IMG/VR virus record: IMGVR_UViG_3300029990_000014
Span: 1-43,755 of that record
Length of the DNA stretch: 43,755 nt
Direction: 5' to 3' (one strand)
Origin: a virus
Under the pieces are notes generated by a model. That model searched no databases. It was not told the origin of the DNA and was given only the letters and a program-made list of their open reading frames with translations. Shown one piece after another: positions 128 to 43,755 of this stretch (the first letter of the stretch is position 1; each line of letters starts with the position of its first letter). Position numbers and translations under genes: made by a program.

Positions 128-2629
128 GAGCGTCTTAATCTCGCTACAAAGCTTACAGATGCTTTCATTGAAGCTGCGCCTTCGGTACACCAGAAACTTG
201 AAATTAACTACGCCGAAGCTGCTGCTAAGATGGGCAAGCCTGTTAAGTCTATGTCTTCTAAGGTAATCAGCGATGTAATCCATGCATTCGCCGACCCCAC
301 TGTTTCAATGGAAGACACGATTAACGAGCTTGCAATGCGAGCTAGGTCTGTAGCGAAGGCTGGCAGTGATATCGGTGCACCCGCCGGGGCTTCTAAACTT
401 GCTAATGGAATTGTAGATAATCAGATTGCCCAGGTATTTACGGCGGGCGATCTGGCAGAAGCTCAGGCAGTTAAAGACTTCGCTACAGCTTCGGCTAGTG
501 ATGTTAATAAGGTTGGACTTAAGCAGACTGCATCTCGTGTAGCTGAAGCTATGGATAACAGTCCTACTACGGATCTCGGTGAGCGTTACAGTATCATGTT
601 CACCAATGGGATTGTACGTGGGAATGTTCCAGTACAGGACAAGGCAGTTGCTTTCGTTGATTGGCTGGGCCGCTCCTTTGTGTCTGACTTTGGGCACAAG
701 AATCTTCACGAGCTTTACCGTACTACGAATAGTGTATTCCAGGACTTCATGCGTATGCACAATACCTTGATGTCTAATCTGCACGATGTAATTGTTAAGG
801 CCGCCGAGAATGAGCGACAGCCCGCTCTTGATTACGCGGCGGAAGCTATGCGTTACTTACAGCGGGGAACCCAGCCTGCTGAACCCATTATGCAGGGAGT
901 TGTTAACCAGCTTAAGCAGTCGGTGGAACTTACCTTCGGCACTGGCATTGACAACTTCGGTGATTTCGCTACACGTAATGGTTTAGTACCTGGGCATCTT
1001 AATCACATTCTTGATTTCTATAACGCCCCCAAGGCATTCCGATTTGATGTCACTAAGACTATGGCATCTCAGAGAAATCTTTGGAAGACGTGGGATATTA
1101 AGGACCCCCTGGTGACTCTCAATCTTATGCACGCTGCGGTCCAACGGGCTAATATTGAGGCTACTCTTGGTCGTCATTTCACCCTGGAGTTTGGGGAGAA
1201 TACGGCTAAGGCAGGGTATGTTCAGATCACGGATAAGTACGGTAAGAGCATCTTGGGTAAGTTCCTAGATGACAAAAAATTCTATCCTCGTGAGATTGCT
1301 GAACAGTTCAAGTATCTTGACGAGGCTATTCAGGGGCGCTTCAAGGGATTTGATAACAAGAGCGTAGCTGCTACTGTTAAGTTCTATGACAAGGTAATTC
1401 ACATGTGGAAGTCTGGGGTTACGATTATTCGTCCCGGTCACCACATTAATAACCTTATCGGAGATGTAGCGCTTGCTTGGTTTGATGGGGTAAATAACCC
1501 TGACGTTTACCGTAAGGCTATCAAGGTAATGTCTTCCCACTCTAAGGCGTACAAGGGTTGGGATGGGCTTAGGGCGCTGTCAGAGGGTGTAGTTCCTCAG
1601 GAGTTAATTGATACCTCGGTAAAGATTAAGACGCGTGTTGGCGGAAAGATGGTATCCGTTGATGGCGCTCACCTTTATCAGGAGGCATTCAAGGCTGGTA
1701 TTATTCCTGACTATACTACACTTGAATCTCTGTCATTCAACACTGGTCAGGAAATGGGTGCTTCTGTAACTAAGAAGGGCATCACCCGTATGCTTGACAA
1801 GGGCGCTCATATTGCTGGTGGAATTAGCCAGGCTCGTGACCACATGGTTCGAATTGGTCACTTCATTAATATCCTGGAAAAGGGTGAGTTTAAGACTCTT
1901 GATGAGGCTTACGCTCACGCCGGAGCTAGGGTTCGTAAGTGGCACCCCGATGGTTCGGACTTAACTAACTTCGAAAACAAGGTGCTTCGCCGTACCTCCA
2001 TGTTCTATAGTTGGATGCGTAAGGCGTTGCCGCTTGTTGTAGAGGCAGTGGTTATGCATCCTGGCAAGGCTTTAATGTTCCCCAAGGCAATGTATGTAAC
2101 TGCTCAGCAAATGGGTGTAGATCCTGAATCCCTAGCTAATCCATTTCCAGCCGATTCGCTGTTCCCGTCATTCATCCAGGATAACATCACTGGTCCTCTG
2201 TGGCATGATCCTGGAACTGGGCACTTAATGGCACCTAATCCAGGTGAGCCTGTAAGCCAGATGATGGGGCAGTACGGTAGCTTAGGTTCAGCCGCCGAGC
2301 AGATAAAGGGTAGCCTTACCCCTGTAGCGAGAATCCCGCTTGAGTTAATGATGGGCTCAAGTATCGCTACAGGAGTTCCTATTAAGGATAAGACAGACTA
2401 TCTTGATCAGAACACCCCTGTAGCGGGTATCGTAGCAGGAATTACAGGCCGTTCACCTTGGTCTGGAATGACTCAGAATACCCGTAACGTTGACAAGGGT
2501 AATACAGCATCTGGTCTTAATATGACCAAGCTTATTAACCTACTTATAGGAGCGGGTATTATTGATACCCAGCAGCCTAACTATCAGAAGCTCGCTCAGT
2601 ATGACGCTAACAAGAAGAACGGAGGTTAG
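1..2629 (+). CDS. Giant virion (ejection-type) protein, C-terminal part
   Basis: This is the downstream part of a gene that starts at 41074 and crosses the cut; the frame is open from base 2. The whole product is about 1,727 residues. This half is largely helical, with a conserved-looking block PGHHINNLIGDVALAWF near the middle and a Gly/Pro-rich stretch with PGTGHL about 200 residues before the end. Very large proteins placed between tail genes and a virion transglycosylase in podoviruses are usually internal virion proteins ejected with the DNA. The neighbouring transglycosylase gene starts three bases after the stop, which supports that role. No enzymatic motif is recognised. The ATG at 71 is internal and not the true start. 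Confidence 0.7.
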   Translation, partial: EVGDTLVHLSQGLLTHELAREDIMSKILKNRGNQLSNLSNTTERLNLATKLTDAFIEAAPSVHQKLEINYAEAAAKMGKPVKSMSSKVISDVIHAFADPTVSMEDTINELAMRARSVAKAGSDIGAPAGASKLANGIVDNQIAQVFTAGDLAEAQAVKDFATASASDVNKVGLKQTASRVAEAMDNSPTTDLGERYSIMFTNGIVRGNVPVQDKAVAFVDWLGRSFVSDFGHKNLHELYRTTNSVFQDFMRMHNTLMSNLHDVIVKAAENERQPALDYAAEAMRYLQRGTQPAEPIMQGVVNQLKQSVELTFGTGIDNFGDFATRNGLVPGHLNHILDFYNAPKAFRFDVTKTMASQRNLWKTWDIKDPLVTLNLMHAAVQRANIEATLGRHFTLEFGENTAKAGYVQITDKYGKSILGKFLDDKKFYPREIAEQFKYLDEAIQGRFKGFDNKSVAATVKFYDKVIHMWKSGVTIIRPGHHINNLIGDVALAWFDGVNNPDVYRKAIKVMSSHSKAYKGWDGLRALSEGVVPQELIDTSVKIKTRVGGKMVSVDGAHLYQEAFKAGIIPDYTTLESLSFNTGQEMGASVTKKGITRMLDKGAHIAGGISQARDHMVRIGHFINILEKGEFKTLDEAYAHAGARVRKWHPDGSDLTNFENKVLRRTSMFYSWMRKALPLVVEAVVMHPGKALMFPKAMYVTAQQMGVDPESLANPFPADSLFPSFIQDNITGPLWHDPGTGHLMAPNPGEPVSQMMGQYGSLGSAAEQIKGSLTPVARIPLELMMGSSIATGVPIKDKTDYLDQNTPVAGIVAGITGRSPWSGMTQNTRNVDKGNTASGLNMTKLINLLIGAGIIDTQQPNYQKLAQYDANKKNGG

Positions 2630-2631
2630 TA

Positions 2632-3261
2632 ATGGCCGCTGTAGACCCGTCCACGTTGTTTGATTACAATACGTCTGCAAATAACCAGTTGCAGCAAATC
2701 AATGCAATGGGAACTGTCGCTACACAAAGGGCTCAGCAAATTGCTGCGGCTCGTGCGGCAGCCATTGCGGCCGCTGCTCAAAACGTTAACCCTAATAATG
2801 CCACTGGTAATTACAACACTAAGTCTACCTTGACTGGTGCTGTACCTAATTACAAGAGTGGACAGAATACGTTCGCTAACTTCCTTCATGCTATCTCAGG
2901 ACGCGAATCTGGTGGAAATTACAACGCCGTTAACCGTGATTCTGGAGCACTCGGGAAATACCAGGTTATGCCTGGGAACGTTGCATCCTGGTCAAAGGAA
3001 GCTCTCGGGCACAGTGTTAGCACCAGCACTTATTTACACAGCCCAAAGATCCAAGAGCAGGTTGCACAATACCAACTTAAGAAATATTACAACAAGTGGG
3101 GTCCTGGTGGAGCTGCGGTTGCTTGGTATGCAGGCCCAGGTGCTGCCCCTAACTGGATGAAAAGTCATGGTCAAGGTAGTCACTGGAATGCTCCGCAAGG
3201 TCACTACTCATCTATTTCAGCGTATGCTTACGGCATCCTGAAAGCTATGGGGCTGATGTGA
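2632..3261 (+). CDS. Virion-associated lytic transglycosylase (SLT/lysozyme-like)
   Basis: A 209-residue protein. The first 80 residues are Ala/Gln/Asn-rich and low-complexity. The catalytic-type domain follows, with GRESGGNYNAVNRDSGALGKYQ: a probable catalytic Glu in the RESGG block, then the G-K-Y-Q motif of SLT and resuscitation-factor-like transglycosylases. It should cut peptidoglycan glycan strands, either during DNA entry or as part of lysis. It starts right after the giant virion protein and its stop overlaps the holin-like GTG start, so it sits between structural and lysis genes. The long disordered N-terminus suggests virion association rather than a free endolysin; this is inferred. 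Confidence 0.8.
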   Translation: MAAVDPSTLFDYNTSANNQLQQINAMGTVATQRAQQIAAARAAAIAAAAQNVNPNNATGNYNTKSTLTGAVPNYKSGQNTFANFLHAISGRESGGNYNAVNRDSGALGKYQVMPGNVASWSKEALGHSVSTSTYLHSPKIQEQVAQYQLKKYYNKWGPGGAAVAWYAGPGAAPNWMKSHGQGSHWNAPQGHYSSISAYAYGILKAMGLM

Positions 3262-3524
3262 GTAAATACTTAAAGGATGCCGCCGAGCGGTTATCCTGGA
3301 CTCTATTATATGCAATGATCGCATGGGGAGTTACGGAAGCTACTAATAGTAGCGATAAGTACGCTCCTCTGATTCTCGTTCTTTTACAGGTAATTAAGCT
3401 GGCTGTAGCTAAGTTTGTTGGTAACCCCAACACAGCGGCTATCGGTGGTGACTCTGTAGAGGCAACGACTGCGGTGCTCGCAGAAGGGCCCACAGACGTT
3501 CCTGAGGGCACTCTGGACAGCTAG
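3258..3524 (+). CDS. Holin-like small membrane protein
   Basis: 88 residues starting at GTG (3258), overlapping the TGA of the transglycosylase gene by four bases. It has two hydrophobic segments: residues about 13-27 (WTLLYAMIAWGV) and 37-54 (APLILVLLQVIKLAVAKFV), followed by a hydrophilic acidic tail. Size, topology and position after a peptidoglycan-degrading enzyme fit a holin that permeabilises the host membrane at lysis. No family signature is firmly recognised. It is the last gene of the late plus-strand run before a separate promoter. Confidence 0.65.
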   Translation: MSKYLKDAAERLSWTLLYAMIAWGVTEATNSSDKYAPLILVLLQVIKLAVAKFVGNPNTAAIGGDSVEATTAVLAEGPTDVPEGTLDS

Positions 3525-3530: not shown

Positions 3531-3559
3531 TTGACAACGCAGTGAGGGCCCGTCACAAT
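3531..3559 (+). promoter_or_regulatory. Sigma70-type promoter for the WhiB gene
   Basis: TTGACA at 3531-3536, a 17-base spacer, and CACAAT at 3554-3559. Transcription starting about seven bases after the -10 box would begin on the A of the ATG at 3566, giving a leaderless mRNA, which is common in actinobacteria. There is no ribosome binding site before that ATG, which agrees. Confidence 0.75.
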
Positions 3560-3565
3560 GTAGCC

Positions 3566-4093
3566 ATGGGATACCCCAATGACTACGCGTGGCGGGCCCT
3601 CAGTGTTTGCGGAGCGTCCTTCAGTACAGCGCTAGCGATCAAAGATCGCGATGAGCGACGTAAAGAGCTTGAGCGTCTTGACTCAATATTTGATCCTAAA
3701 GGCAGGCCAAGACGAAAAGAACATTTCAGTCAGTTCTGTGACAACTGCCCTGTGTCTCAGAATTGCTTAGTTGATGGATTTGTTCATGATGAGGAGGGAA
3801 TCTGGGGAGGAACTAGAGACGCTACAAGAAAGTCTCTTCTTACTATTCAAACATGGAGAAATCGGGTAATTGAGGAATACCAAGAAGGTCGGCTTGACGT
3901 GGATCGGCTGGACTCGAAGTCTGAGATTTGGACGATTTTGAAGCCAATTCTTTCACCTCGGCCTGTTCCTCGCGATATTGATCCACAATCAACTGCGGAT
4001 CTAGACCTAATTGAATTGCGGCTTCAGTTACTTTGTATGACCACGATAGAAGAGGAGCTAGAACTTCGGGCTCAAGAATCATTGGTGGAATAG
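3566..4093 (+). CDS. WhiB-family transcriptional regulator
   Basis: From the ATG at 3566 the protein has 175 residues. It carries the WhiB arrangement: a first Cys (SVCGAS), then FCDNCPVSQNC (C-x2-C-x5-C) and the turn motif GIWGGT, followed by a basic stretch. The four Cys should hold an iron-sulfur cluster; WhiB proteins bind the main sigma factor and change transcription, and phage versions can repress host whiB genes. The upstream GTG/ATG at 3542 is unlikely because the promoter lies there. About 70 residues follow the WhiB core with no recognised domain, and the last 250 bases overlap a gene on the opposite strand. WhiB occurs in actinobacteria and their phages, so this is the best host indicator. 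Confidence 0.88.
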   Translation: MGYPNDYAWRALSVCGASFSTALAIKDRDERRKELERLDSIFDPKGRPRRKEHFSQFCDNCPVSQNCLVDGFVHDEEGIWGGTRDATRKSLLTIQTWRNRVIEEYQEGRLDVDRLDSKSEIWTILKPILSPRPVPRDIDPQSTADLDLIELRLQLLCMTTIEEELELRAQESLVE

Positions 4094-4445
4094 CTCCACC
4101 ATATCGTTCTTCCGGAGTCTTATGCGTCCAATCAAGACCTGAATGAATGCGAAGCCAGGCAGCGCGGCAAATATCGTTGCAGTATGCTACTTGCTTACTG
4201 TTGGTTAGGAACATTTCACCGCAATGCTTACAAGCTACACCAATAAACGCATGAGGGCGCTCAAGGCTGTTCAGCACCGCATCCATACTCTCGGATCGCG
4301 ATTGCAGAGCAGCCTTTTGCCTTGCCTCCTTTACCACCGCCTCAGGGTCGACGTCTCGAATAACGATTCCCTTTTTGGCAAGACCTGCCAACGCCTTAGT
4401 TAGGTTGGCAATATCTTTTCTCTCACTGCTTCGGGACACGTGCAA
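3843..4445 (-). CDS. Zinc-ribbon protein of unknown function
   Basis: 200 residues with one putative zinc ribbon in the middle: ACKHCGEMF then YCNDICRAAW, a C-x2-C...C-x3-C pattern common in small phage proteins. The N-terminus is basic and helical; the C-terminus is low-complexity (Lys/Ser/Gln-rich), ending in a hydrophobic/acidic tip DFSMFE. It is the last gene of the minus-strand replication run; its start overlaps the RuvC-like gene by 23 bases. Its last 250 bases run antisense through the WhiB gene, so the two mRNAs must converge. It may bind DNA or a replication protein; that is only a guess. Confidence 0.65.
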   Translation of the reverse strand: MHVSRSSERKDIANLTKALAGLAKKGIVIRDVDPEAVVKEARQKAALQSRSESMDAVLNSLERPHAFIGVACKHCGEMFLTNSKQVAYCNDICRAAWLRIHSGLDWTHKTPEERYGGAIPPMILEPEVLAPLLSWSYKVTEAAIQLGLDPQLIVDQYREEQAEVKELASKSSKSQTSSPADPRQADLLGIPQLPDFSMFE

Positions 4446-4902
4446 GCTCCAATGCGGTAGGTCGGAGGTTATTGCCGATCATGTAGTAATACCCGTGTAG
4501 CGCGGCGCATACCCTGTGAGATTTGCTATGATCCGAGGGCCTAAATACCTGAGCCCATTTCTCCGCCGTGGGTAGGATATCAGAGTCTTGCATTACTACA
4601 GGAATACGGTACATTGCAGCCCAGGCTGTAGCGGCTCCAATTACCTTAGAGGTTACTAGCTTAGAGCCAGCGTGTGACATTGCCTTACGTGTGAAGATCA
4701 TGTAGTCTTCAATAATTACCTTGCAAGCATCCCCGATGATACCTGGATTGTCCATCATCCATTCATTGAAGCCTTCGAGTCCGCCTTCAATATGGCCGTC
4801 GTAAAGAACACCCTCCTTATTCATTAGAGCCCATCCCGTAGTATGACCAGGATCGAAGCATAAATACTGCGCCATCTTAATTACCATTGCTACCCCAATC
4901 AT
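4423..4902 (-). CDS. RuvC-like Holliday junction resolvase
   Basis: 159 residues from the first in-frame ATG. The RNase H fold starts with CFDPGHTTGWAL (D-x-G-x-T-G, first catalytic Asp), then IIEDYMIF with the second acidic residue, and a C-terminal KSHRVCAALHGYYY block typical of this family. It would resolve branched DNA before packaging. The true start may be the ATG at 4887 or 4875; both are closer to the fold and overlap the polymerase stop less. No strong ribosome site decides this, and translational coupling to the polymerase gene is likely. Confidence 0.8.
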   Translation of the reverse strand: MIGVAMVIKMAQYLCFDPGHTTGWALMNKEGVLYDGHIEGGLEGFNEWMMDNPGIIGDACKVIIEDYMIFTRKAMSHAGSKLVTSKVIGAATAWAAMYRIPVVMQDSDILPTAEKWAQVFRPSDHSKSHRVCAALHGYYYMIGNNLRPTALELARVPKQ

Positions 4903-6667
4903 GGGTATCTACGTCGAACTTAGCCCTAAAGAATCCGTTACCAACCCCTGTCATAATGGCAGCGATTTGCTTCTTTGCGGATTCCGCTACAGAGCGCTCC
5001 GCCTCAAAGCAGAATGCATCATGAATCTGTAGCATAACCCGGACGGCGCCGTCGGAAGGAATGATAACTTCCTTCACAATCTGATTGAGGGCAACCTCAA
5101 CAATATCGGCGGCGCCGCCCTGGATACGTGAATTGAAAGCCTTGTGTGCTTCCGCCTTTACATTAGCAAAGTTACGGTAGCGACCAGACCAGATTTTGAC
5201 CCTCTTTGTAGCGAATGCTTCTCGTGTAGCGAGATCAATAGCAGACTTAAATCCAGGATACTGTCCAAAGAACCCAAGTTTACGATCAGCTGCTTGTGCT
5301 TTATTAATTCCAAATACATTCATCAGTCGCTGAAGTCCAGCACCGTACTGAATTGAATATACCATGGTCTTTACCTCATGACGAGGCATTCCAAGTTCTT
5401 TAGCCATCTCAGTGAAAACATCACGGCCGTGTTCAAATGCATCAATTAGTGCTGCGTCTTGTGCGTAATGAGTTCCAAGTCGAAGTTCAAGTTGTGAGTA
5501 GTCAATCTCAAATCCGAGCATTCCGTCGCTAGCCTTGAAGGCTTTCTTAGTATCGCCGTTCCAGGGATTTGATGAGTTACGTGGAATCTGTTGAAGATTT
5601 GGGTTACGTGAGCTTACTCGTCCTGTTACAGTTCCGCCGGCGTCTCCGCCTTCTGCCGCTTTGTGAAGCATGTAGTTAGTTCGAAGTCGCCCATCAGGGC
5701 TCATGTTGTCAAGGTAAGCCTTAAACATGGAGGAAGTGGCCTTCTCCCACCCACGATAAGCCTTAACCCATTCTGCAATTGGGTTATCTACACGTTGAAG
5801 AATGACGTCATATTCTTGCATAGCTTCTTTGTCGAATGAGGGTCTACCGTTCGGCGTTGTCTTAACTACAGGCAACCCGAGTTCGTCCAACAGGATCTTT
5901 TTAAGGTGGGCCCCTGTAGGCTTACCACCCAGCAGTTCTGTGACGTCTGCCATTACGTCCGAGCCTTCATAGAGTTTGCGCTCACAGAAGCTCTCGTCAA
6001 TTTGAACACCAGTTTGCATTAGAAGATCGAAGCTGTGAATTGTATCTGACTTGTGCTCTTCCCAGTATCGATGAAGTCCAATTTGTTCAACCTTTTGCCA
6101 TTCGTGTTCCCAGACCATATACGTAACTTCAGGGTCCCATACTGCATACTCGTACATTACATCTGCTGGAATCCATGCCCAGTCTTCATCGCGCCATGTC
6201 TTTTCAACTTTATTCAAACCTAGATAATTGAATGCAAGAGAGTCAAGAGATCGATTGAGAGGCCAGTTTTCGTTGACAAGTGAAGAGATTAACATTGTGT
6301 CATAAAGTATGGGAGAGGTGGGAATGTTGATCCCAAGAGTTCGAAGTGCCGGTAGGTCGTATAGGGCGTTGTGGAATACTGTCCGCTTTGTAGTCTTTTG
6401 TAGAATTCTACGCAGTTCTTCAAGACATCTACTGTTGTAGTTGAATCCCACACTGAATCGAAAAGGGAAAAAATGAGATGATAGTTTTCCGTTGACTTTA
6501 ATTGTCGTTCCAATACCAGTGGCATGGTCCCTAAGGTCGCGTACCTTAAGTCCCGTACCCTCGGTGTCAATGGCGATAACTTCTGCGTCTTCAAGCTGTC
6601 TAAGATACTCTCCAAGGTCAGTTCCATTTTTGGTTACCCGCCAATCAGTTTTCAGCGTCTCTGGCAC
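4877..6667 (-). CDS. polA: DNA polymerase I-type (family A) with 3'-5' exonuclease
   Basis: About 596 residues from the GTG at 6667, chosen because GGGAG lies seven bases upstream; the frame is open to 6694. Exonuclease motifs: IDTEGTG (Exo I), FHNALYDLPAL (Exo II), YAVWDPEVTY (Exo III). Polymerase motifs: DYSQLELRLGTH (motif A), a KTMVYSIQYGAGL block (O-helix/motif B) and QIHDAFCFE (motif C). There is no 5' nuclease domain, as in many phage enzymes. In motif C the usual HDE reads HDA, so the Glu after the catalytic Asp is replaced. It replicates the phage genome with the primase-helicase encoded just upstream, whose stop it overlaps by about 20 bases. Confidence 0.92.
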   Translation of the reverse strand: MPETLKTDWRVTKNGTDLGEYLRQLEDAEVIAIDTEGTGLKVRDLRDHATGIGTTIKVNGKLSSHFFPFRFSVGFNYNSRCLEELRRILQKTTKRTVFHNALYDLPALRTLGINIPTSPILYDTMLISSLVNENWPLNRSLDSLAFNYLGLNKVEKTWRDEDWAWIPADVMYEYAVWDPEVTYMVWEHEWQKVEQIGLHRYWEEHKSDTIHSFDLLMQTGVQIDESFCERKLYEGSDVMADVTELLGGKPTGAHLKKILLDELGLPVVKTTPNGRPSFDKEAMQEYDVILQRVDNPIAEWVKAYRGWEKATSSMFKAYLDNMSPDGRLRTNYMLHKAAEGGDAGGTVTGRVSSRNPNLQQIPRNSSNPWNGDTKKAFKASDGMLGFEIDYSQLELRLGTHYAQDAALIDAFEHGRDVFTEMAKELGMPRHEVKTMVYSIQYGAGLQRLMNVFGINKAQAADRKLGFFGQYPGFKSAIDLATREAFATKRVKIWSGRYRNFANVKAEAHKAFNSRIQGGAADIVEVALNQIVKEVIIPSDGAVRVMLQIHDAFCFEAERSVAESAKKQIAAIMTGVGNGFFRAKFDVDTHDWGSNGN

Positions 6668-8393
6668 GTGGAATCTCCCTACGAATGAAATCAAGATTAG
6701 ATGTTCTAATTACATGGAACGGATACTGTTCCTCAGCGAATCGATTCTTCACAGTCCTGAATTCAATAGCCTTCGTATCGGGCGCTCTCCACAGGTTAAT
6801 TACAAGTGATGCGTCAACTGTAAGATAGACGTTTCCGTAGGTATCTGAAAGCGTTGAGTTTTTACTTCCCGGCGCCGATTTACGACTGTGGTGAATGAGT
6901 ACGAAGTAGACGTCAAGTTTTGATCTAATTTTATTTAGGATTAAGTTCATCGCTCGGATAGGCAATTCCTTACTGATCTCGCCGTTGATAATCTTTCCAA
7001 CAGAATCAATATAGATGCCTTGAATTCTATGTTCTTTGATTAGGTTAACTATGTACTTTTGGGTATCAGGATGTTCGATATCCATGGGTTCATTACTAGG
7101 ATCAATGAGAAAGTTAGCGTCAATCATTGATCTCTGTAGCGGAGTATATCCGGCGAGCATTGGTGTAAGAATTCGCTTAACACTTACAGCACCCATCTCA
7201 AGTGAAAGATAGAGTACCTTGTGAGGTTCAGCAACCTTATACCCAAGCCAGTCCCTGCCTGTAGCGCAAGATAGACAGAGACGCAAAGCCATCTGAGACT
7301 TACCAACTCCAGGATCAGCGATAATGAATGCCAATCCATCTGAAGTAATAAGATCAGTGACTTTCCAGTCGAACTTGAGGTCTGCCGCCATGAGTTCAGA
7401 CATTGTGTACAACGTCTTAACATTGACTTCAGTTGTCTCTTTAAGAAGACCACCAACTTCAAGTGGATCATTTGCCTTTGGAACTTTGGACTTAGCGCGA
7501 GAGATAATTGAAATCAATCGCCGCTTACGATCTGCCCTGGTCTTATACTTCCCCCACTTATCATCCACATGGAGAAGCATTGAGTACATTTCTTCGGGCT
7601 GCATTCCAAGTTCAGCACACTCATAAGCAAGCCGAAGCATTGCCTTAGCACGCTGACCATCAGGAACGATCTTATTCAACAGATCGCGAGTATCTGGGAG
7701 CAGATCGTATTTCGCTACAAGGTCAATAACGCTCGGGATACTAGTAGTATCAATCTCAATATCATAAGCGTCATTGATCTGTGTTCTATCAACTACGATT
7801 GAATTCTCAGCGTAGATAGCCGATGCATTATCGTGGAAGATTGTTACGGGTTGACCTTCATCGCCTCGCTTGAAGTTCCTAGTTCCTGGAACCCTGAGGA
7901 GTTGATTAGCATCCCAGCCTGTCTTGTCAGCATTCGCTACAAAGGTGAAATACTTATTGAGCGACTCAAGACGAATTAGGTCATCAACGAAAACGTCCAG
8001 CTTCCAATAGGCATGCTGGTTACTCTCTGCGGATGTACGAACTCTTACACTTGGAACTGGAATAGATGGAAGATCCCACTCATCAGGAGCATTGCCATCG
8101 AAATCAGCCCAGATAACAGATGCGCCGAGAACGTTAATCTTGTCACTCGACCTACTGCCGCGCCTGAATACGGCAGGGTGGAACCATACATCGTACTGCT
8201 TACCTACCTGGGCTTTAACGTATTCGATAATCTCAGGCTTCTTTTCAGGCCAATTGAAGAAAGCCTTACCCCAAGCTCCGCTCTGAGATTTGACAGCAAG
8301 TCCTACCGAACACGTCGGAGCGTCGCCCCAAATGTAATCAAAGAAGGCTTCAAGCTTCTTGATACTTGGGGCGACGCCAGACGTATTGCTCAT
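6645..8393 (-). CDS. Primase-polymerase/RepA-like helicase fusion
   Basis: 582 residues. The N-terminal half resembles archaeo-eukaryotic-type primases of the RepB/prim-pol group: VIWADFDGNAPDEW supplies paired Asp residues and SNQHAYWKLD the conserved His region. The C-terminal half is a RecA-fold ATPase of the RepA hexameric helicase type: Walker A ADPGVGKS, Walker B GIYIDSVGK, and a sensor-like VLIHHSRK. The protein would prime and unwind DNA for the polymerase gene that follows. The start ATG at 8393 is followed by a disordered SNTSGVAP stretch. Order primase-helicase, polymerase, resolvase suggests one replication operon. Confidence 0.82.
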   Translation of the reverse strand: MSNTSGVAPSIKKLEAFFDYIWGDAPTCSVGLAVKSQSGAWGKAFFNWPEKKPEIIEYVKAQVGKQYDVWFHPAVFRRGSRSSDKINVLGASVIWADFDGNAPDEWDLPSIPVPSVRVRTSAESNQHAYWKLDVFVDDLIRLESLNKYFTFVANADKTGWDANQLLRVPGTRNFKRGDEGQPVTIFHDNASAIYAENSIVVDRTQINDAYDIEIDTTSIPSVIDLVAKYDLLPDTRDLLNKIVPDGQRAKAMLRLAYECAELGMQPEEMYSMLLHVDDKWGKYKTRADRKRRLISIISRAKSKVPKANDPLEVGGLLKETTEVNVKTLYTMSELMAADLKFDWKVTDLITSDGLAFIIADPGVGKSQMALRLCLSCATGRDWLGYKVAEPHKVLYLSLEMGAVSVKRILTPMLAGYTPLQRSMIDANFLIDPSNEPMDIEHPDTQKYIVNLIKEHRIQGIYIDSVGKIINGEISKELPIRAMNLILNKIRSKLDVYFVLIHHSRKSAPGSKNSTLSDTYGNVYLTVDASLVINLWRAPDTKAIEFRTVKNRFAEEQYPFHVIRTSNLDFIRREIPRARDAEN

Positions 8394-9604: not shown

Positions 9605-9617
9605 TGTCTTATCCACG

Positions 9618-9690
9618 TGCCCGTCGTGGGATTCGAACCCACACTGTACTGATTTTAAGTCAGCTTTCTCTGCCATTGGAATACACGGGC
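9618..9690 (-). tRNA. tRNA-Leu (anticodon UAA), short variable arm
   Basis: Cloverleaf on the minus strand: acceptor GCCCGTG/GACGGGC (six pairs plus a G-G at position 7), D-loop with GG, anticodon stem GCTGA/TCAGT with loop CTTAAAA (anticodon UAA), five-base variable region, T-arm GTGGG-TTCGAAT-CCCAC, discriminator A, no encoded CCA. It reads UUA, a codon used freely in this genome but rare in typical actinobacteria. The short variable arm is class I, whereas cellular bacterial tRNA-Leu is class II. Confidence 0.85.
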
Positions 9691-10292: not shown

Positions 10293-10322
10293 TATAGCCT
10301 CCATGTAGCGAATTAAGTTACG

Positions 10323-10394
10323 TAGTCCCTGAGGGATTCGAACCCCCGACATGTTGCGTGTAAGGCAGCCGCTCTACCACTGAGCTAAGAGACC
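10323..10394 (-). tRNA. tRNA-Val (anticodon UAC)
   Basis: Minus-strand cloverleaf: acceptor GGTCTCT/AGGGACT, D-arm GCTC-AGTGGTA-GAGC, anticodon loop CTTACAC (anticodon UAC), T-arm CGGGG-TTCGAAT-CCCTC (four Watson-Crick pairs plus G-T), discriminator A, no encoded CCA. One C-A mismatch lies in the anticodon stem. It reads GUA, the codon most often used where the genome-wide TGTAGCG motif falls in sense-strand genes as GTA-GCG (Val-Ala). Confidence 0.9.
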
Positions 10395-20686: not shown

Positions 20687-20887
20687 CTATAGTATCCTCT
20701 CAATCTCAGCCCAATGCTCAGAGCAAACATATTCCTCAGCCAATCCCCATTTGCATCCTGCCCTCTCAGACAACATAATCAACCGCCGGAATTCCTTATC
20801 AAATAACTTATACTCCGCTACAGAGCAACAGTGATCCTTCCCTCTCCACCACTGACAAGCAATCCCCCGCCTAATCCTGTTAGCCAT
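20687..20887 (-). CDS. Small Cys/Trp-rich protein
   Basis: 66 residues, basic N-terminus (MANRIRRGIACQWWRGKDHCC), five Cys and His spread along the chain. AGGA lies seven bases before the ATG and the start overlaps the previous stop by eight bases. After its TAG the same frame continues for 25 sense codons (IAALTEKRAKDIYKAKKDY onwards) to the TAA at 20610, where the membrane-protein ATG begins. Readthrough or an ATT start would use that tail. Confidence 0.55.
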   Translation of the reverse strand: MANRIRRGIACQWWRGKDHCCSVAEYKLFDKEFRRLIMLSERAGCKWGLAEEYVCSEHWAEIERIL

Positions 20888-21329
20888 TCAATATCCTTTC
20901 CGCGAATAAAGCAATCCTTCGCCCCCACCCCGGAGCCGCATAGATTTCTCTCAATGCATCAATCTCTTCCCAGAATTCAATCCCCAATTTCGGCATATCA
21001 ACTACTTCGCTACACAACTCCTCCCAGCTCATCCCTACTAACATAATTACTTGTTCCGAATTTCCTTTCAATCCGACAGGGATCATTCCAAGGGCACGGC
21101 GACAAAGTAGCTCCTGCTGATTATCTATGGGCACAATAGCTGGTTTGCCTACTACCCCCAACGCCGCAGCAACTTCATTGGAGGGGGAATAGAGCCCTTC
21201 CTTCAATATGAATTCTCCAGTCGAAACCCAAGATGCAAGAGTTGAGCGGGACACAAATTCATCCATCTCACTTACTCGCAAGGGAAATACTGCACCCCTT
21301 AATTTCTCAATACTACGCACGGATAGCAT
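20880..21329 (-). CDS. Unknown protein
   Basis: 149 residues from the ATG at 21329. It starts LSVRSIEKLRGAVFPLRVSE and has helical stretches; the VSEMDEFVSRSTLASWVS part could be a short helix-turn-helix but this is weak. No other motif. The only ribosome-site candidate (GGGAG) is about 13 bases upstream. Confidence 0.55.
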   Translation of the reverse strand: MLSVRSIEKLRGAVFPLRVSEMDEFVSRSTLASWVSTGEFILKEGLYSPSNEVAAALGVVGKPAIVPIDNQQELLCRRALGMIPVGLKGNSEQVIMLVGMSWEELCSEVVDMPKLGIEFWEEIDALREIYAAPGWGRRIALFAERILNG

Positions 21330-21640: not shown

Positions 21641-21724
21641 GGGTGGGGGAACTTCAAGATCCAAGATCCTAGGTCCTGGACTCCGTCCTTGACCTTGGAT
21701 CTCGGATCTCGAAGTTCCCCACCC
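21641..21724 (-). other. 84-base near-perfect long hairpin
   Basis: The arms pair almost fully: 21641-21675 with 21690-21724, continuing through GGAC/GTCC to a three-base loop. There is one extra base in an arm and one A-A type mismatch. Two remaining mismatches are A-C on the plus strand but G-U on the minus transcript, so the minus RNA folds best. No T-run follows. It may be a transcript-end structure or a regulatory RNA. Confidence 0.7.
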
Positions 21725-22077: not shown

Positions 22078-22824
22078 TCAGGCGTTGACTCGCGCCCGAA
22101 CCTTTGCAGTCACCGTGACGTTGATCGAAACATTCGCGTCTGCGTCGGAAGCAACCGACACGGGAACATTCAGCTCAGTACCGGCAGGCAATGCCTTTAG
22201 GGCCTCAACACCACCGGCCGACTCAATGAAAGCCGCACGCACGCCATCCGAGGTGAAGTTCTTCCCAAACTTCACGAGCTTACTCGAAAGGTCGGTGATG
22301 TTCTTCGCGGTGTCGATGATGACCTCTCCCGAAGAATTGGTCACCTTGAAACCCTCAAAGCTGAACTTAGGCGTACCCGTGCCCGCGCCGGATGTACTGC
22401 CTGTAGCGGAAGCCTTACGGCTACCCTTCAATCCAGTTAGGTCGGGAAGCTCAGTGACATCAACCTCGCCCGCACCGAACTTCTCAATGAGGGCAACCAT
22501 CTGCTTAATGGTCGCGTGCTTTGCAGCGTAATCCTTACGCGCTGCGTCAGGATCACCAACATTCTCGAAAGCACCAACAGATTCGAGGTGGTCATGCGCC
22601 TTGGCAAGCATGTCCTGACGACGCGCCTCGAACTCCGCCATGCGCTCACGCCAAAGGTTCATCCACTCGTCATCCCACGTCTGACGCAGGTTTTCGGCCA
22701 ACGAGTCAGGATCGGTGGCGGAATTGACAGTGGCGGCAAGAGAGTTGCAGGCGGCAATCTCGGCGGTGACAGTCTCAACCAGACCGCGAATCATTCCATT
22801 GTCGATCTTCGAAACGTCGATCAT
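22078..22824 (-). CDS. Unknown early protein, GC-rich codon use
   Basis: 248 residues from the ATG at 22824 (GGAG five bases upstream). N-terminal two thirds helical with Trp-rich part (TWDDEWMNLWRERMAEFEAR), a Ser/Thr/Gly linker, then a beta-rich C-terminal domain (KFSFEGFKVTNSSGEVIID). Codon choice is visibly richer in G/C than its neighbours, which may mean high early expression with host-like codons or recent gain. It follows a good promoter. No family recognised. Confidence 0.7.
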   Translation of the reverse strand: MIDVSKIDNGMIRGLVETVTAEIAACNSLAATVNSATDPDSLAENLRQTWDDEWMNLWRERMAEFEARRQDMLAKAHDHLESVGAFENVGDPDAARKDYAAKHATIKQMVALIEKFGAGEVDVTELPDLTGLKGSRKASATGSTSGAGTGTPKFSFEGFKVTNSSGEVIIDTAKNITDLSSKLVKFGKNFTSDGVRAAFIESAGGVEALKALPAGTELNVPVSVASDADANVSINVTVTAKVRARVNA

Positions 22825-34503: not shown

Positions 34504-36165
34504 ATGGCTGGAGTTCTTACCCTTAACGATCAGTTCTATGCGTGGTTAAAGGCTAACGGAATTACCAAGAATATTGATGAGCTTACTCTTGATCTCATCA
34601 TGACTTGGTATTTAGCCTCTCCTGGAGGTGGCCAGAACTTCCCTGGTTATATTTACCTGGATGATTACTCCGGTACAGATGACCAGAAGTTAGCAGCAGC
34701 TATGGCCGCTGCTAATGCTGCCACAAACCCTCCTATTATTAAGTTCTCTAACAGAGATCACTCTTTCTCTGTAGCGCAGACTATGTACGATGGCTTCGCT
34801 ATTGAGGGGCTTATTCGTCCCTCTAACGCAGAGAAAACATCTAATAGTGATTATACGCCCGTAAAGTGTGATATTAACGTTGCTGCGGGGGTATGGCTTA
34901 CCTCCGCTACAGGAACCTATACCTGGGACGTTTATATTGCAGGGTTTGCATTTGAAGGCCACCAGACCGTACAGTTCATGGCCAATACTAATAGCGGCCT
35001 TAACTGCGGTGTAATTAGAGATGTATCGTTTAACTCTTTCAAGTCCGTCCTAGGATCACAGGCTACTAAGTTAGCCCTTACTGCCTGCCATTTTGATGGA
35101 TACTGGGAGGTTAATAACTCCTATAACGGCGCTATTCATATCGGTGGTTCAGATAATGATCTTTGGACTAATGGCATTCTGCTTGATTCTTCACTCGCAT
35201 TTGGTGTAGCGGGATCAGCAACAGGTCAGTATCACCTTTGGACGGACTTCCTTGAGAAGACTTCTCTAGGTATTCCGTATATTACATGTGAAGGATTATG
35301 GGGCGGCTGGCGTAACAGTGGCCCCACTTATAACCCCTCAGGCTCACCATCTAACCTGGGTGGGCCTAATACTATGATGGCCGGTGCTCGTATTGAAGGT
35401 CGTAATGCGGGATCTGGATCTAATGGTAACTTGATTCGAGTTGATGGCGGAATCGCAGTAGTAGACGGCATCTGGCTCGGATACGGCATGATTAGCCCCG
35501 CTACACAAGGGCACTCTCCTCAGGATGCAGGTATTATCCATGTAACCGATGGAATGCTTCTTGCAGATAATATCACCTATGACCGTGCAACGGGTGTAGC
35601 GGAATCCGTACCTGTAATATATGTAAGCGGTACGGGTAACGCTAAGGTTGGCGATATTATCGTTGGCTCTAAGGGCGGCCAATGGACTAGTCGTCCTGTT
35701 ATTACGGATGCTAGTACTGGAGTAGTACTCCGAAGTGGGTCTACTTTCTGTAACATTACAGGTGATATTACTACTGGATCTGCGGTACTAGCTAATGCAA
35801 CTGGATTAGCTCTTGTTGTGGAGCCAGGTACTTGGGAGTTTGAGTTCTTTATTCCCTATACGGGCTCATTATCCGCCTCTGCACCCTTTACTTTGGTTCT
35901 TAATGGCCCTACAGCTAGCTTTGTATCAAGTGAAATCTACTTCCAGAACTCTACCACAGGTAAGGCAGAACAGGTACAGACCGCATTTGGGGTTAGTTAC
36001 GTAGGTCCTAACGTTACTACCGGCGGATCTGTGTATCTTGCTAGGATCATCGGTACTGCTGTAGTTACTGCTCTTGGTACTTTACAGGTTCAATACGCTT
36101 CCGATGGTACGCATACTAATACCATTAAGGCTGGCGCCTATGGTAGAGCTACTTTAATCGGATAA
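34504..36165 (+). CDS. Tailspike-like receptor-binding protein
   Basis: 553 residues. N-terminal anchor (TLNDQFYAWLKANG) like the preceding gene; then a pectate-lyase-like region beginning YLDDYSGTDDQKLAAAM with beta-helix-type repeats and many Gly/Asn/Asp; C-terminal domain TWEFEFFIPYTG shared with the preceding gene. Probably binds or degrades a host surface polysaccharide. Ribosome site is weak; coupling to the short paralogue is likely. Confidence 0.75.
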   Translation: MAGVLTLNDQFYAWLKANGITKNIDELTLDLIMTWYLASPGGGQNFPGYIYLDDYSGTDDQKLAAAMAAANAATNPPIIKFSNRDHSFSVAQTMYDGFAIEGLIRPSNAEKTSNSDYTPVKCDINVAAGVWLTSATGTYTWDVYIAGFAFEGHQTVQFMANTNSGLNCGVIRDVSFNSFKSVLGSQATKLALTACHFDGYWEVNNSYNGAIHIGGSDNDLWTNGILLDSSLAFGVAGSATGQYHLWTDFLEKTSLGIPYITCEGLWGGWRNSGPTYNPSGSPSNLGGPNTMMAGARIEGRNAGSGSNGNLIRVDGGIAVVDGIWLGYGMISPATQGHSPQDAGIIHVTDGMLLADNITYDRATGVAESVPVIYVSGTGNAKVGDIIVGSKGGQWTSRPVITDASTGVVLRSGSTFCNITGDITTGSAVLANATGLALVVEPGTWEFEFFIPYTGSLSASAPFTLVLNGPTASFVSSEIYFQNSTTGKAEQVQTAFGVSYVGPNVTTGGSVYLARIIGTAVVTALGTLQVQYASDGTHTNTIKAGAYGRATLIG

Positions 36166-39947: not shown

Positions 39948-41066
39948 GTGGCTACTAAGAAGAAGAATGCTGGCGACATGCAGTCCATGCCGCCGCTTGT
40001 ATTCCAGACTAATCAGAACTTCGCGGGGTCTAAGACATACGTCCCTCCTGCGGGTTCAATTCAGCCTACGGTTCCTACTATTGATACTTCGATCCCGACT
40101 ACGGATCAGTTATTAGCTCAGGCTAATACTGACGTAGGTGCTCAGTACGATGCACAGATCGCTGCTATTAATGCTCAGGTTGCTCAGGCTAAGAAGAACT
40201 ATGGCCTCAACGATAAGCAGACCAAGAAGATGTACAACGACTTGGTCAAGAATATCAAGGGCAATAGTGGCACTATTAAGGACAACTTTAATAGTGGAAT
40301 CAGCTCTGTAGCGAATGATACCCGGACCGGCATTGGAGATGTTAATAACATCTACGGCAGGTCTCAGTCTAATATCGCTGGTACTCTTGCTAAGTTTGGT
40401 CTTGGCCAGGGTGCGGGGGATTCGCTACAGACCGGCGCTAATCAGCAGAGCTTGATCACTAGTCTTATGGCTCACGATGGCGCAGCTATTAAGGGTCAGC
40501 TTAGCACCAATAAGGCTACCGATTTAGCGTTCAATACGGAGCAGGCTAACTCTTCTGCGCAGGCCGGGACTGAAACTCGTACTGCTTTACTCCGCCAGCT
40601 TAATGATACTATTAATGGCTATGGTAATCAGAAGATTTCAGTTATGGGTCAGCGTGCTAGCGCTGTAGCGAGTCGTGCTAGTGACCTTCAGAGTCAGGCA
40701 TTAACTCGTCAGCAGAATCTACAGAACATGCTTTACCAGGCGCAACAGGATCAAGCAGCGGCTCAGGCTAAGCAGGACTCAGCTGCACAGGCTCAGGCTC
40801 AGCAGCAGGCTACTAATGACCGAGCTAACTTCAGTCAGCAGTGGTCAACTATGGGTCCCGAGGAAAAGGCCACCTATAAGGCATCTCAATTGTTCGGCTC
40901 CGACAGGGCAAGTACGGCTGTTGGTCTTATCAATTCTGTTATGTCTAAGGGAACGTACGCTAATTATGCACAGTTTGAAGACGCTGTTCGCAAGGCTAAT
41001 AATGGTTCTCTTCCTGAAAACCAGCTTCTTAGTTTAGCCAATTACGTCTATAACAACAACCGATAG
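39948..41066 (+). CDS. Internal virion protein candidate, coiled-coil
   Basis: 372 residues from a GTG at 39948 with AAGGAGG six bases upstream. Gln/Ala/Asn-rich with long helices (YDAQIAAINAQVAQAKKNYG, QQDQAAAQAKQDSAAQAQAQ). Place after the tail hub and before the giant virion protein matches the ejection-protein group of podoviruses. Three motif copies lie inside. Confidence 0.65.
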   Translation: MATKKKNAGDMQSMPPLVFQTNQNFAGSKTYVPPAGSIQPTVPTIDTSIPTTDQLLAQANTDVGAQYDAQIAAINAQVAQAKKNYGLNDKQTKKMYNDLVKNIKGNSGTIKDNFNSGISSVANDTRTGIGDVNNIYGRSQSNIAGTLAKFGLGQGAGDSLQTGANQQSLITSLMAHDGAAIKGQLSTNKATDLAFNTEQANSSAQAGTETRTALLRQLNDTINGYGNQKISVMGQRASAVASRASDLQSQALTRQQNLQNMLYQAQQDQAAAQAKQDSAAQAQAQQQATNDRANFSQQWSTMGPEEKATYKASQLFGSDRASTAVGLINSVMSKGTYANYAQFEDAVRKANNGSLPENQLLSLANYVYNNNR

Positions 41067-41073
41067 GACGGTA

Positions 41074-43755
41074 ATGGCTACATCCTGGTATGATAAGTAT
41101 AGCAGCCAATTAGCTGCCGTTCAGGCTTATCGTACGGGTTTGTTAGCTGATCGTATCAATGCGCCGAAGCCGGCCCCAGTAGCACCTCAACTGGGGCCGG
41201 CTGATATCGCTATGGTAGCGATGAGCCAGAGCAGGCCCGATTATAATAAGCTTGCCTCTCTTGCCGGAAATAACAAGGAAAGTGCCGCTAGTTGGTGGGG
41301 TTACCAGGCTCCTAAGGGAACTGGTAATTTCTTACATGACTACTGGAATGAAGTAACTGCCAGCATCGCCTCTCCGTTTAGGTCACATCCTGGCAAGGTT
41401 GTACTGGACTTATTACAGCGTCCCGCCGCTGCGGTAGGCGCATCTGCCAATTGGTCTTCTAGTTATGTGGCTAAGCACGGTTGGGGACCTTCTGTAGCGA
41501 GTCAGGCCGAGGGTAAAGATTTCCTCAATAAGGTCGGTGCTGCACTGCAGGGAAAGACCCACACCTATCTTGGTGATGTAGTTGATGCAAATGTACTTAG
41601 TAAGATGCACAATGCAGACAGTACCCCTAACAAAATCTCTAGGGGAATTCTTAAGTTTGGATTAGACGTTGGTGGTGATCCTCTTACTTTCGTAGATCCC
41701 GCTAATGCTATCTCAGGGGTTAAGAAGTTAGCAGGAGCTGCCGCCGCTACAGAAGTAACTAAGGCTACCGCCGCTAAGTCTATTGTTGAGAATGCAGTAC
41801 AGGACGGAGCTGTTCCAACTAATGGCATCAAGACTTTGCTGGAGGGTGCTACTCCTAAGCCTAATCCTTGGGTAAAGGGTCCGAATGCGCCTGTAAACCC
41901 TTGGGTAAGAGGCCCTAACGCGGAAGTTAATCCCTGGGTAAAGGGGCCTAATGCAGCCGTTAATCCTTGGGTCAGAGGTCCTGTAGCGGATGCTGCTAAG
42001 GCTAATCCTTACATTCGTGGACCTCTTAATGAAGCTGAAAAGACTGCTCAGGCTACCCGAGTAACTCAGGTAGCTGCCCGTGTTCAGCTTGAGAAGATTA
42101 ACCAGGCTATTAGTTCCTCTTCTAGGTATGCTATTCCGAAGTCGGCAGAGCTTACTAAGACTGTTCCTACTTCGGCAATCAAAGAAGCTACTAAGACTCC
42201 TGCTCAGCTTGAGAAGCTTGCCCATGTTCGTGCTGTAAAGGTAGCTCTTCTTAACTCTCCGGAAGATAAGATCGGTGAGTTTACTGTTCGAGATTACTTA
42301 GCTACTGCTGCTAAGTCTCCTGAGCAGGCTAAGTTTGTGGATAGTATTTTCAATAAGGAAGCTATTCGCTTAAGTGGCGCTGCTAGTACTGGAAGCAGAA
42401 TTGTACGCACTTCGTACATTAATGCTGAAGGAAAGACAGTTGCAAAGAGTGGCTACACTTTAACAGTTGATCAGATTAAGCAATTAATGCACCATGGCTT
42501 GTCTTCTGATGCTGCAAGTAAAGTATTACAGGATGTCGCTACAGACCCTGATAAGATTCTTCTTCACACTAGCAGTGGAACTCAGGTATCTCTTCGTAGG
42601 TACCTGGATCATTTAGGTGTTGATGTAGGGCTTGGAGTTACTTCTTCCCGACTTGCTAAGATGGCAGAAGTTAATCTTACCTCTACCGTTCCAATGTCCA
42701 GGAATGAATCTCTTCAGTGGCTCAGTAAGCATGCTACTCTTAGTGAGCAGGATTTAGCTCACCTCCGTAACGCGCCTACTGATAAGGAATTCACTAACCG
42801 ACTTAACCAGCTCAAGCTTAAGACGGTTGCTGCCAGTTATCCTACGCTTAGGGATTTCATCTCCGCCGCCAAGTCCGGCGTAGTCCCCGCAGAAGAAGTT
42901 GCCCAGGTACTTCGAATTGCAGGGGCTAAGGATTTAACTGCTCTTGAGAAGTCTGTAGGTAATATTGCATCCAAGGCTGTAGGCAAGGAATCCAAGCTTC
43001 CTACTCTCACTAAGCCCGAGGTAGCAGTCGCCGATTCAGCTAAGGTGTCTAAGGCTAAGGCTGTAGCGGATAAGGCAGTGATTCCTGCTCACGAGTTAAT
43101 TGCAGCTGTAGCGGATGGTCCGGGTATTGTTCGTAATATTCCCCATCTTAATCCTGAACAGATTCAAAGCTTACGCAACTCTCTTAATGATGCAGCTATT
43201 ACTCAGCTTATTGACCCTCAGGATAAGCACATCTACCCCTTCGTTACTCTTATTAAGCAGGCCCGTAAGACGGCTGAGGGCATAGGCGTAGGTAAGGCTC
43301 GTAACCTTCATGGCTGGAATAAGATGTCACAGATGACTCTTATTAAGAATATCATGGAGGACTGGAGGGGAAAGTTTACTGTTCCCTCTGGCATTAAGAA
43401 TACTAAGCCCCTGTATGCGCAGCGAGCATCAAATCTGTATGAATCTGTAATGCCCGTATTTGAAGCGGCTGATGTTCTTCTTAAGTCGAAGGGCGTCAAG
43501 TTAATCTCCGGCACAGATGAAGCTGGGCTTCCCCTCAGTATATACGATGTGATGTCCTCACTTCCTCGCGCTGTTATGGAGAAGTTCTACTTCAACTACA
43601 GGTATTCAATTCTTCCTACAACGTTCTCTGAAGTTGGGGATACGTTAGTACATCTCAGTCAGGGATTACTTACTCATGAACTAGCACGTGAAGATATCAT
43701 GAGTAAGATCCTTAAGAATAGGGGCAACCAGCTCTCTAATCTTAGCAACACGACT
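41074..43755 (+). CDS. Giant virion (ejection-type) protein, N-terminal part (continues at base 1)
   Basis: ATG at 41074 after GGACGG; the frame stays open to the end and continues in frame from base 2 to 2629, about 1,727 residues in all. N-terminal part is Ala/Lys-rich with W-containing segments. From 41863 four tandem 11-residue repeats NPWV(K/R)GPNA-x-V occur, spaced 33 bases, then a variant NPYIRGPL at 42004. The rest is helical. Large size and location suggest an internal core protein or a tape-like ejected protein. No catalytic motif seen. Confidence 0.72.
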   Translation, partial: MATSWYDKYSSQLAAVQAYRTGLLADRINAPKPAPVAPQLGPADIAMVAMSQSRPDYNKLASLAGNNKESAASWWGYQAPKGTGNFLHDYWNEVTASIASPFRSHPGKVVLDLLQRPAAAVGASANWSSSYVAKHGWGPSVASQAEGKDFLNKVGAALQGKTHTYLGDVVDANVLSKMHNADSTPNKISRGILKFGLDVGGDPLTFVDPANAISGVKKLAGAAAATEVTKATAAKSIVENAVQDGAVPTNGIKTLLEGATPKPNPWVKGPNAPVNPWVRGPNAEVNPWVKGPNAAVNPWVRGPVADAAKANPYIRGPLNEAEKTAQATRVTQVAARVQLEKINQAISSSSRYAIPKSAELTKTVPTSAIKEATKTPAQLEKLAHVRAVKVALLNSPEDKIGEFTVRDYLATAAKSPEQAKFVDSIFNKEAIRLSGAASTGSRIVRTSYINAEGKTVAKSGYTLTVDQIKQLMHHGLSSDAASKVLQDVATDPDKILLHTSSGTQVSLRRYLDHLGVDVGLGVTSSRLAKMAEVNLTSTVPMSRNESLQWLSKHATLSEQDLAHLRNAPTDKEFTNRLNQLKLKTVAASYPTLRDFISAAKSGVVPAEEVAQVLRIAGAKDLTALEKSVGNIASKAVGKESKLPTLTKPEVAVADSAKVSKAKAVADKAVIPAHELIAAVADGPGIVRNIPHLNPEQIQSLRNSLNDAAITQLIDPQDKHIYPFVTLIKQARKTAEGIGVGKARNLHGWNKMSQMTLIKNIMEDWRGKFTVPSGIKNTKPLYAQRASNLYESVMPVFEAADVLLKSKGVKLISGTDEAGLPLSIYDVMSSLPRAVMEKFYFNYRYSILPTTFSEVGDTLVHLSQGLLTHELAREDIMSKILKNRGNQLSNLSNTT
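43629..43755. repeat. Terminal overlap of a circular assembly (right copy)
   Basis: Exact copy of bases 1-127. The reading frame that begins at 41074 enters this copy in the same frame as the one continuing from base 2 to 2629, so joining 43628 to 1 restores one gene. Confidence 0.9.

Follow-up and report, generated by a model that had tools for sequence, protein, structure and literature searches.

The dispersed word TGTAGCG of a phage genome and its probable role as a start site for the phage's own RepB'-type primase

Virus record IMGVR_UViG_3300029990_000014, the whole 43,755-base stretch that we analyse here as the window (unique length 43,628 after a direct terminal repeat), carries the heptamer TGTAGCG on both strands along its length. 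It also carries a gene for a primase-helicase in which a candidate RepB'-type archaeo-eukaryotic primase (AEP) domain, a helix bundle domain (HBD) and a helicase domain resembling RSF1010 RepA follow one another. The word copies and the parts of the gene lie as follows.

TGTAGCG, plus strand, 58 copies starting at 349, 1465, 2323, 2419, 4496, 4627, 5207, 5225, 7135, 7260, 8562, 8598, 8724, 10304, 11092, 11753, 12746, 12935, 13370, 14761, 15804, 17154, 17259, 18507, 19213, 21864, 22402, 23702, 23741, 23864, 24195, 25203, 25771, 26399, 26737, 28368, 28566, 29190, 30979, 31360, 31592, 31844, 32042, 33073, 34490, 34770, 35205, 35595, 37468, 38033, 38177, 39304, 40307, 40664, 41493, 41982, 43062, 43107
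CGCTACA (minus-strand copies), 38 starting at 142, 481, 967, 2365, 2718, 3820, 4985, 7713, 7935, 8876, 11560, 11743, 11887, 13988, 15405, 16080, 17517, 18108, 18568, 19193, 20256, 20366, 20816, 21008, 21332, 25822, 30264, 30435, 30553, 34091, 34905, 35499, 37266, 37319, 37591, 40423, 41745, 42537
6645..8393, minus strand, primase-helicase gene, 582 residues, ATG start
7785..8375, minus strand, predicted AEP catalytic domain (approximately residues 7-203), which includes D97/D99, H127, W130 and the LLRVPGT(R)N motif region
7485..7730, minus strand, putative HBD, residues about 222-303, helices in the model, with W280-G-K282-Y
6678..7424, minus strand, putative RepA-type helicase domain, residues about 324-572

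An earlier note on this sequence had claimed 94 copies of the word where some five are expected, with the form CTGTAGCGR making up roughly two thirds. Our recount finds 96 copies against a mean of 5.3 per 7-mer over both strands; 63 of the 96 have the form CTGTAGCG and 59 (61%) the form CTGTAGCGR. The span given there, from a first copy at 142 to a last at 43107-43113, agrees with the recount, as do the five largest gaps (1910, 1671, 1631, 1428 and 1300 bases). The word is sharp, without a halo of near-matches, because all 21 of its single-mismatch neighbours reach only 0-8 copies each. The eight next-commonest 7-mers (68, 54, 43, 31, 30, 28, 28 and 27 copies) all overlap it, and the commonest that do not overlap it stop at 24, so that no other 7-mer is equally enriched. 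Weaker flanking preferences extend the word to approximately [not A][C>G]TGTAGCG[A/G]A[A/T]. Its first T, the one before GT, is strict (A, C and G substitutes have 2, 4 and 5 copies), and A is rare among the three bases that precede the word (12, 3 and 5 of 96).

The codon-preserving shuffle that the earlier note had proposed as a check leaves its claim standing. Synonymous-codon shuffling of 38 open reading frames (ORFs) over 200 rounds gave 4.5±2.1 copies with a maximum of 11, against 77 observed in coding DNA; a repeat with a simple ORF caller gave 3.9±2.2 with a maximum of 10 in 100 rounds, against 68 observed. A further 19 copies lie outside the listed ORFs. TGTAGCG is a real, selected and phage-specific dispersed word.

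The primase-helicase is matched by the profiles PHROG 10514 (DNA primase), phrog_19/6012 (helicase) and PF13481. Profile A1 matches both RSF1010 RepA (1g8y, E 1.8e-15) and RepB' (3h20), and 10 of its 15 members match PF16793 (RepB_primase); searching PDB sequences with profile A4 did not reach any AEP chain, whereas A1 did. An AlphaFold model of the whole protein has a mean pLDDT (predicted local distance difference test) of 78.7, and the N-terminal 311 residues modelled alone reach 82.3. For this N-terminal part the top Foldseek match is RepB' 3h20 (E 1.2e-9), over 316 columns that span both domains at a root-mean-square deviation (rmsd) of 20. The AEP domain matches 6zp9 (Z 18.6), 3h20 (Z 16.7) and 3h25 (Z 16.2). 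The N-terminal part also matches the cyanophage S-2L PrimPol, other archaeo-eukaryotic primases more weakly, and pRN1 9aam over residues 7-309 (Z 9.0, rmsd 6.5). The HBD region matches PriX 4wyh over residues 230-305 at Z 6.8, more weakly than the catalytic domain matches its relatives. The C-terminal part has RSF1010 RepA as its top match (1olo, 1g8y and 1nlf, Z 26; Foldseek 1nlf, E 2.9e-12). D99, H127 and W130 are invariant across alignment A3; a wider alignment shows other residues in place of this histidine in several phages with the word GTGTGG (e.g. Jamzy, Cleo, GTE2, Muddy and NoShow). From these predicted folds, the window protein would in effect be RepB' and RepA in one chain. No relative of the primase was found in a scan of bacterial and archaeal genomes, nor among viral contigs when the window primase served as the lone query.

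Relatives of the window were collected by similarity of portal, capsid or terminase. They differ in their word: some carry TGTAGCG, others a related word, such as CTGTAGCC, CTGTAGGA, CCTGTAGG, CTGTCGG or CTGTGGGT, and some none. Relatives of the primase-helicase occur in phages of other virion types as well, and nine of ten such phages (of Gordonia, Mycobacterium, Microbacterium, Arthrobacter, Serratia and Pseudomonas) have GTGTGG or GTGTGC, while the tenth, a Desulfofustis phage, has CTGTGG. Phages with a RepB'-type primase each have a dispersed word of the form [C/G/T]TGTnn, their own among CTGTAGCG, CTGTAGCC, CTGTCGG, CTGTGGG, CTGTAAAG, GTGTGC and GTGTGG. Among named relatives, DS1 has 116 copies of CTGTCG and ctEqG8 has 98 of CTGTAG(G); Shocker (L057), a genome of 63% GC, has 45 copies of CTGTAAAG with one-mismatch neighbours averaging 0.2. 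Jasmine (CTGTGG 101, GTGTGC 9) and Molivia (GTGTGC 109, CTGTGG 41, in 49 kb counted) share one host, Arthrobacter sp. ATCC 21022, and differ in word, and GTGTGG is common to phages of Gordonia, Mycobacterium, Microbacterium, Serratia and Pseudomonas. In 11 of the 23 genomes, TGTG forms part of the word. Individual sites turn over: in aligned genes, 2 sites lie at homologous bases between the window (35 sites) and G023 (20), and 5 between G023 (20) and G030 (10). Shocker has a second sharp word, TAGGGTA, with 25 copies against a mean of 1.1 for its neighbours. Some of these copies cluster towards the two ends of the genome, and the primase word does not account for TAGGGTA.

We sought the association between word and primase by ranking the best of the 64 NTGTNN words by sharpness among the approximately 2080 6-mers of each genome. 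Every one of the 23 genomes that have the primase domain placed its best NTGTNN word, a variant of its own, within the top 8; in six controls the rank of the best such word was 16-175. A held-out set of viral contigs found by primase similarity comprised 18 loci, four of which (L112, L115, L116 and L117) were records already used; the AEP profile was present in 14 of the 14 new loci, and in 11 of 11 held-out loci of at least 12.7 kb the word ranked 1-2. Combined, under a narrower word pattern that was chosen after seeing the data, the word is present in all 34 of the genomes or loci longer than 10.4 kb that have the primase, a count that leaves out L126, L127 and L129, and in 0 of 11 without the primase. 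These 34 cannot be counted as independent cases. Match scores are identical for G009, L118 and L119, possibly a single species, and the Gordonia and Mycobacterium phages among the 34 are related.

Controls were checked for the AEP profile. Five are the longest records without a full primase in a set of 30 (8 with the full primase, 3 with the helicase part only, 19 with neither), of which 15 were read further; G005 and G022 were counted over 40,000 of their 41,441 and 42,286 bases. In control G007, 39 residues of one ORF match the AEP profile weakly (17 bits); this ORF extends to the contig end and has no Pfam match. Controls L131-L134, loci of 13.5-20.6 kb, surround a RepA-type helicase and lack the AEP profile. 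Many of the 19 records without a primase are shorter fragments that carry the family word, as are G002 and G003; 20 loci of such fragments were checked, and none of the primase, RepA, PolA, Sak4 and exonuclease turned up in them. What these fragments lack is the early region, which does not show them to be without a primase; they were left out of the count.

Trees cannot separate the replication genes, because these travel together: Mantel r is 0.49-0.55 across the primase, PolA, Sak4 and the exonuclease, the RepA helicase being assessed by presence and not by tree comparison. Natural swaps can. G022 has homologues of the window RepA helicase, PolA (588 bits), Sak4, exonuclease, SNF2, TerL, portal and major capsid protein, with a PF09250 Prim-Pol joined to the RepA-type helicase in place of the RepB'-type domain (L088:1722-3542, minus strand); it has no word, its best candidate being CTGTGC at rank 33. 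G004 and G006 have the RepA helicase, Sak4, exonuclease and SNF2, no AEP and no word. Conversely, Molivia has a RepB'-type primase domain joined to DUF3987 (L059:26685-28925, minus strand) and has a word. Across its whole record no RepA-type helicase is detectable; nothing matches the window-type exonuclease profile, the record annotating a Cas4-family exonuclease. PolA occurs without a word only in G022, T7 and gh-1, and the portal and capsid profiles find just 13 of 23 word carriers. In these comparisons the primase half is the part of the module that goes with the word, over the helicase, recombination and virion genes, and the word follows the phage's own RepB'-type primase domain, not the host.

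Word orientation is independent of gene direction in 22 of the 23 genomes, the exception being ctEqG8 (Fisher p 0.047). With genomes taken as independent, copies on the same strand are spaced more evenly than under a uniform distribution in 9 of 23 (Fisher 5e-12) and more evenly than strand-permuted sites in 6 of 23 (combined 1e-5). The terminase strand is richer in the word in 19 genomes, poorer in 3 and equal in 1 (exceeding composition by a pooled z of 3.8 over anagrams). Of the 23 records, G025 (L103, L104) alone has a significant block in which the word keeps one orientation (p 0.003, 7.9-20.9 kb). In the HBD, a motif [WL]NK is present in 10 of 11 phages with a TGTG word and in 0 of 12 with TGTA or TGTC; it is present in 0 of 11 held-out loci where this motif is visible, none of which has a TGTG word.

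Taken with what characterised relatives do, these comparisons make it probable that the phage's own RepB'-type primase recognises TGTAGCG and starts primers there, the spelling of the word being specific to the phage's lineage. Reading of the word by the primase domain, the start of a primer there and the identity of its first base are the steps modelled on those relatives. The RepA-type helicase would travel along the single-stranded template, the HBD would read 5'-GTAGCG(A/G)-3', and the catalytic domain would form the initial dinucleotide on the (C)T that lies just 5' of GTAGCG. The primer would then begin with A opposite T, usually followed by G, and would presumably be extended by the family A polymerase. 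Each lineage's version of the word would be matched to its own primase domain. A site of seven or eight letters arises by chance only about five times per genome, too few for lagging-strand synthesis, and selection would therefore keep the sites, holding about one per 450 bp. The phage words can be parsed as [C/G]T, rarely TT, followed by GTGG, GTGC, GTAG, GTCG or GTAA; by analogy, the strict T before GT would suit a primer that starts with A, and the scarcity of A 5' of the word might reflect the first primer bases. In the relatives, RSF1010 ssiA has a conserved GTG that is proposed to be where the primer starts (PMC4434180), the pRN1 primase uses a GTG motif and makes its dinucleotide opposite the two bases 5' of GTG (PMC8076596), and the NrS-1 primase uses GTGG, GTGA or TTTGGTTA, starting for the most part at the base that immediately precedes the site on its 5' side (PMC8718748), as far as the consulted portions of these reports go.

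Other readings of the word have to be weighed. It could be a site at which the helicase-primase loads or restarts, as in primosome assembly or ssi-like sites, with primers starting elsewhere or at few copies. The RSF1010 ssi sites are read by RepB' and are single origin sites, one per strand, in a leading-strand mode, according to the portions consulted of PMC4434180 and PMC4234260, and the window is without an origin-linked orientation switch; about 100 copies on both strands, evenly spaced on the same strand in 9 of 23 genomes, suit repeated priming better, and we consider loading unlikely. That another phage protein travelling with the primase binds the word (the polymerase, or a nucleoid, packaging or transcription factor) would fit the co-inheritance of the replication modules noted above and the presence of PolA in all 23 word-bearing genomes. 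Against this, the limited reach of the portal and capsid profiles and the occurrence of every tested module protein bar the primase domain in at least one wordless control make such a binder very unlikely. A Chi-like word read by the phage's own Sak4/exonuclease system is highly improbable: Sak4 and the exonuclease lie near the primase, each in 22 of 23 word-bearing genomes, and polarity towards the terminase strand would be expected of Chi too, but G004, G006 and G022 have both proteins and no word, Molivia has a word without a match to the window exonuclease profile, and AEP relatives read GTG in vitro (PMC8718748 and PMC8076596, in the portions consulted).

The probability that the host imposed the word (as Chi, uptake, methylation or nucleoid site), or that codon usage or composition produced it, is next to negligible. 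Hosts are able to shape phage words. However, counts in phage genomes give different words for one host and one word for hosts as distant as Mycobacterium and Pseudomonas, and we rejected a host word on the ground that the word varies within one host and is common across distant ones. An artefact of codons or composition was rejected in turn, the 77 observed copies standing far above the shuffle maximum of 11 in 200 rounds and the one-mismatch neighbours lying at background. What the earlier note had surmised therefore divides: a dispersed recognition word kept by selection stands, as does the suspicion of a new phage word, while its suggestion of a Chi-like, DNA-uptake, HIP1-type or host-modification word is not supported, given the GTGTGG shared by phages of different hosts and the differing words of Jasmine and Molivia.

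Several observations weigh against a primase start site as the function of the word. Word distance correlates equally with the trees of PolA and of the primase (Mantel r 0.55 each), PolA being found in all 23 word-bearing genomes, and the correlations between HBD and word may be a matter of shared descent. The window word has GTA, and characterised relatives have GTG; the NrS-1 primase is reported to be flexible in its sites (PMC8718748, portions consulted), and the window word looks strict. The window protein, taken alone, has no match to PF16793 at E 0.01. Copies in the window are spaced no more evenly than expected at random (p 0.41 and 0.81), and no switch of orientation marks an origin there (p 0.31). 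G027 has a weak excess, with 19 copies in coding DNA against 10.9±3.6 in shuffles (maximum 20 of 100), and Cleo stands at its shuffle maximum (45 against 28.4, maximum 45). When all 64 NTGTNN words are allowed, control L134 (GC 0.34) reaches rank 7 with TTGTTT. Among short loci with a primase, L126 (5.4 kb) has CTGTAG only at rank 12 and L127 (4.6 kb) has a best rank of 38, and in L129 (10.3 kb) ATGTAT alone reaches rank 7, the best fitting word standing at rank 114. L129 is a possible counterexample to the association, not a firm one, because pieces of 10 kb cut from 14 word-bearing phages also miss the word, with a rank above 30 in 9 of 56 (and in 45 of 136 pieces of 4.5 kb); these three short loci decide little. 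The window-kind primase of L129 (9827-10309) is cut by the contig end.

Beyond the word and the primase-helicase, the window holds the following features.

1..127 and 43629-43755, plus strand, direct terminal repeat of 127 bp with no copy of TGTAGCG inside
3542-4093, WhiB-family regulator (PF02467, 1e-8), overlapping a convergent ORF at 3843-4445
4877..6694, minus strand, family A DNA polymerase with 3'-5' exonuclease (PF00476 5.5e-59, PF01612)
9617-9690, minus strand, tRNA-Leu (taa)
10322-10394, minus strand, tRNA-Val (tac)
21646-21720, inverted repeat with 36-nt arms (86% complementary) and a 3-nt loop, between minus-strand ORFs 20880-21329 and 22078-22824
41862-41990, imperfect tandem repeat with a 33-nt unit

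The capsid and portal are related to proteins of Arthrobacter, Microbacterium and Cellulosimicrobium phages, and an actinobacterial host would fit the WhiB gene and these named relatives. Jasmine has the same arrangement of WhiB gene and convergent ORF as the window. The inverted repeat is possibly an origin or a terminator; an origin near 21.4-21.9 kb, beside it, was tried as the point of a switch in word orientation and was rejected, as the switch was significant neither in the window (p 0.31) nor in four named relatives. Against phage records, a megablast search with window bases 1-25000 and a tblastn search with 34504-36165 gave no match.

Sequence-specific primase sites are an already known kind of thing, and primase start sites are usually thought to be of two or three letters, too common to mark a genome. 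T7 gp4 has a DnaG-type primase with a trinucleotide site, and thus has no need for extra copies; the T7 genome has no TGT word, unlike the window. Chi, DUS/USS and HIP1 are short, dispersed words far above chance that belong to hosts, in contrast to the window word, which is specific to the phage, with phages that share a host having different words. Mycobacteriophage stoperators are phage-specific and dispersed, at about 20-30 sites in one orientation to transcription, whereas the window word has 96 copies oriented independently of genes. In being one protein that would both unwind and prime the lagging strand, the window primase-helicase resembles T7 gp4 (PMC4234260, portions consulted). With RSF1010 RepB'/RepA it shares the predicted fold of both halves. 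That system has a sequence-specific start site with a conserved GTG where the window word has GTA (PMC4434180); the parts of that literature consulted describe two proteins and a 40-nt hairpin-bearing site, one per strand, in a leading-strand mode, in contrast to one fused protein and 96 short sites. The prim-pols pRN1 ORF904 and NrS-1 join an AEP to a helix bundle, use a short template motif and initiate just 5' of it, much as is proposed for the window, and in the pRN1 primase the HBD binds the recognition motif. Their motif is GTG (or TTTGGTTA for NrS-1), genome-wide enrichment is not described in the portions consulted, and the pRN1 helicase is of superfamily 3 (PMC4234260), unlike the RepA type of the window. 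Among the titles and abstract openings listed in searches of the open PMC literature, we found no report of a dispersed primase word in phage genomes, nor of a long primase word that recurs at about one copy per 450 bp genome-wide and differs by lineage.

If TGTAGCG is a primase start site, there seems to be a class of primases in phages that recognises long words, and what they recognise is on display in the genomes, such that the recognition sequence of an uncharacterised primase would be readable straight from its genome. The natural series of primase-word pairs would serve for working out how the HBD reads DNA, and it raises the question of how a genome changes about 100 sites upon a change of primase. 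We tentatively suggest, as a possibility somewhat short of an even bet, a private priming code, in which a lineage's primase reads a strict word of six to eight letters that is dense in its own genome and in little else in the cell, word and HBD changing together with about 100 sites rewritten per switch. Were this so, replication would be steered to the phage's own DNA, and exchange of primases between lineages would be costly, a barrier to phage recombination.

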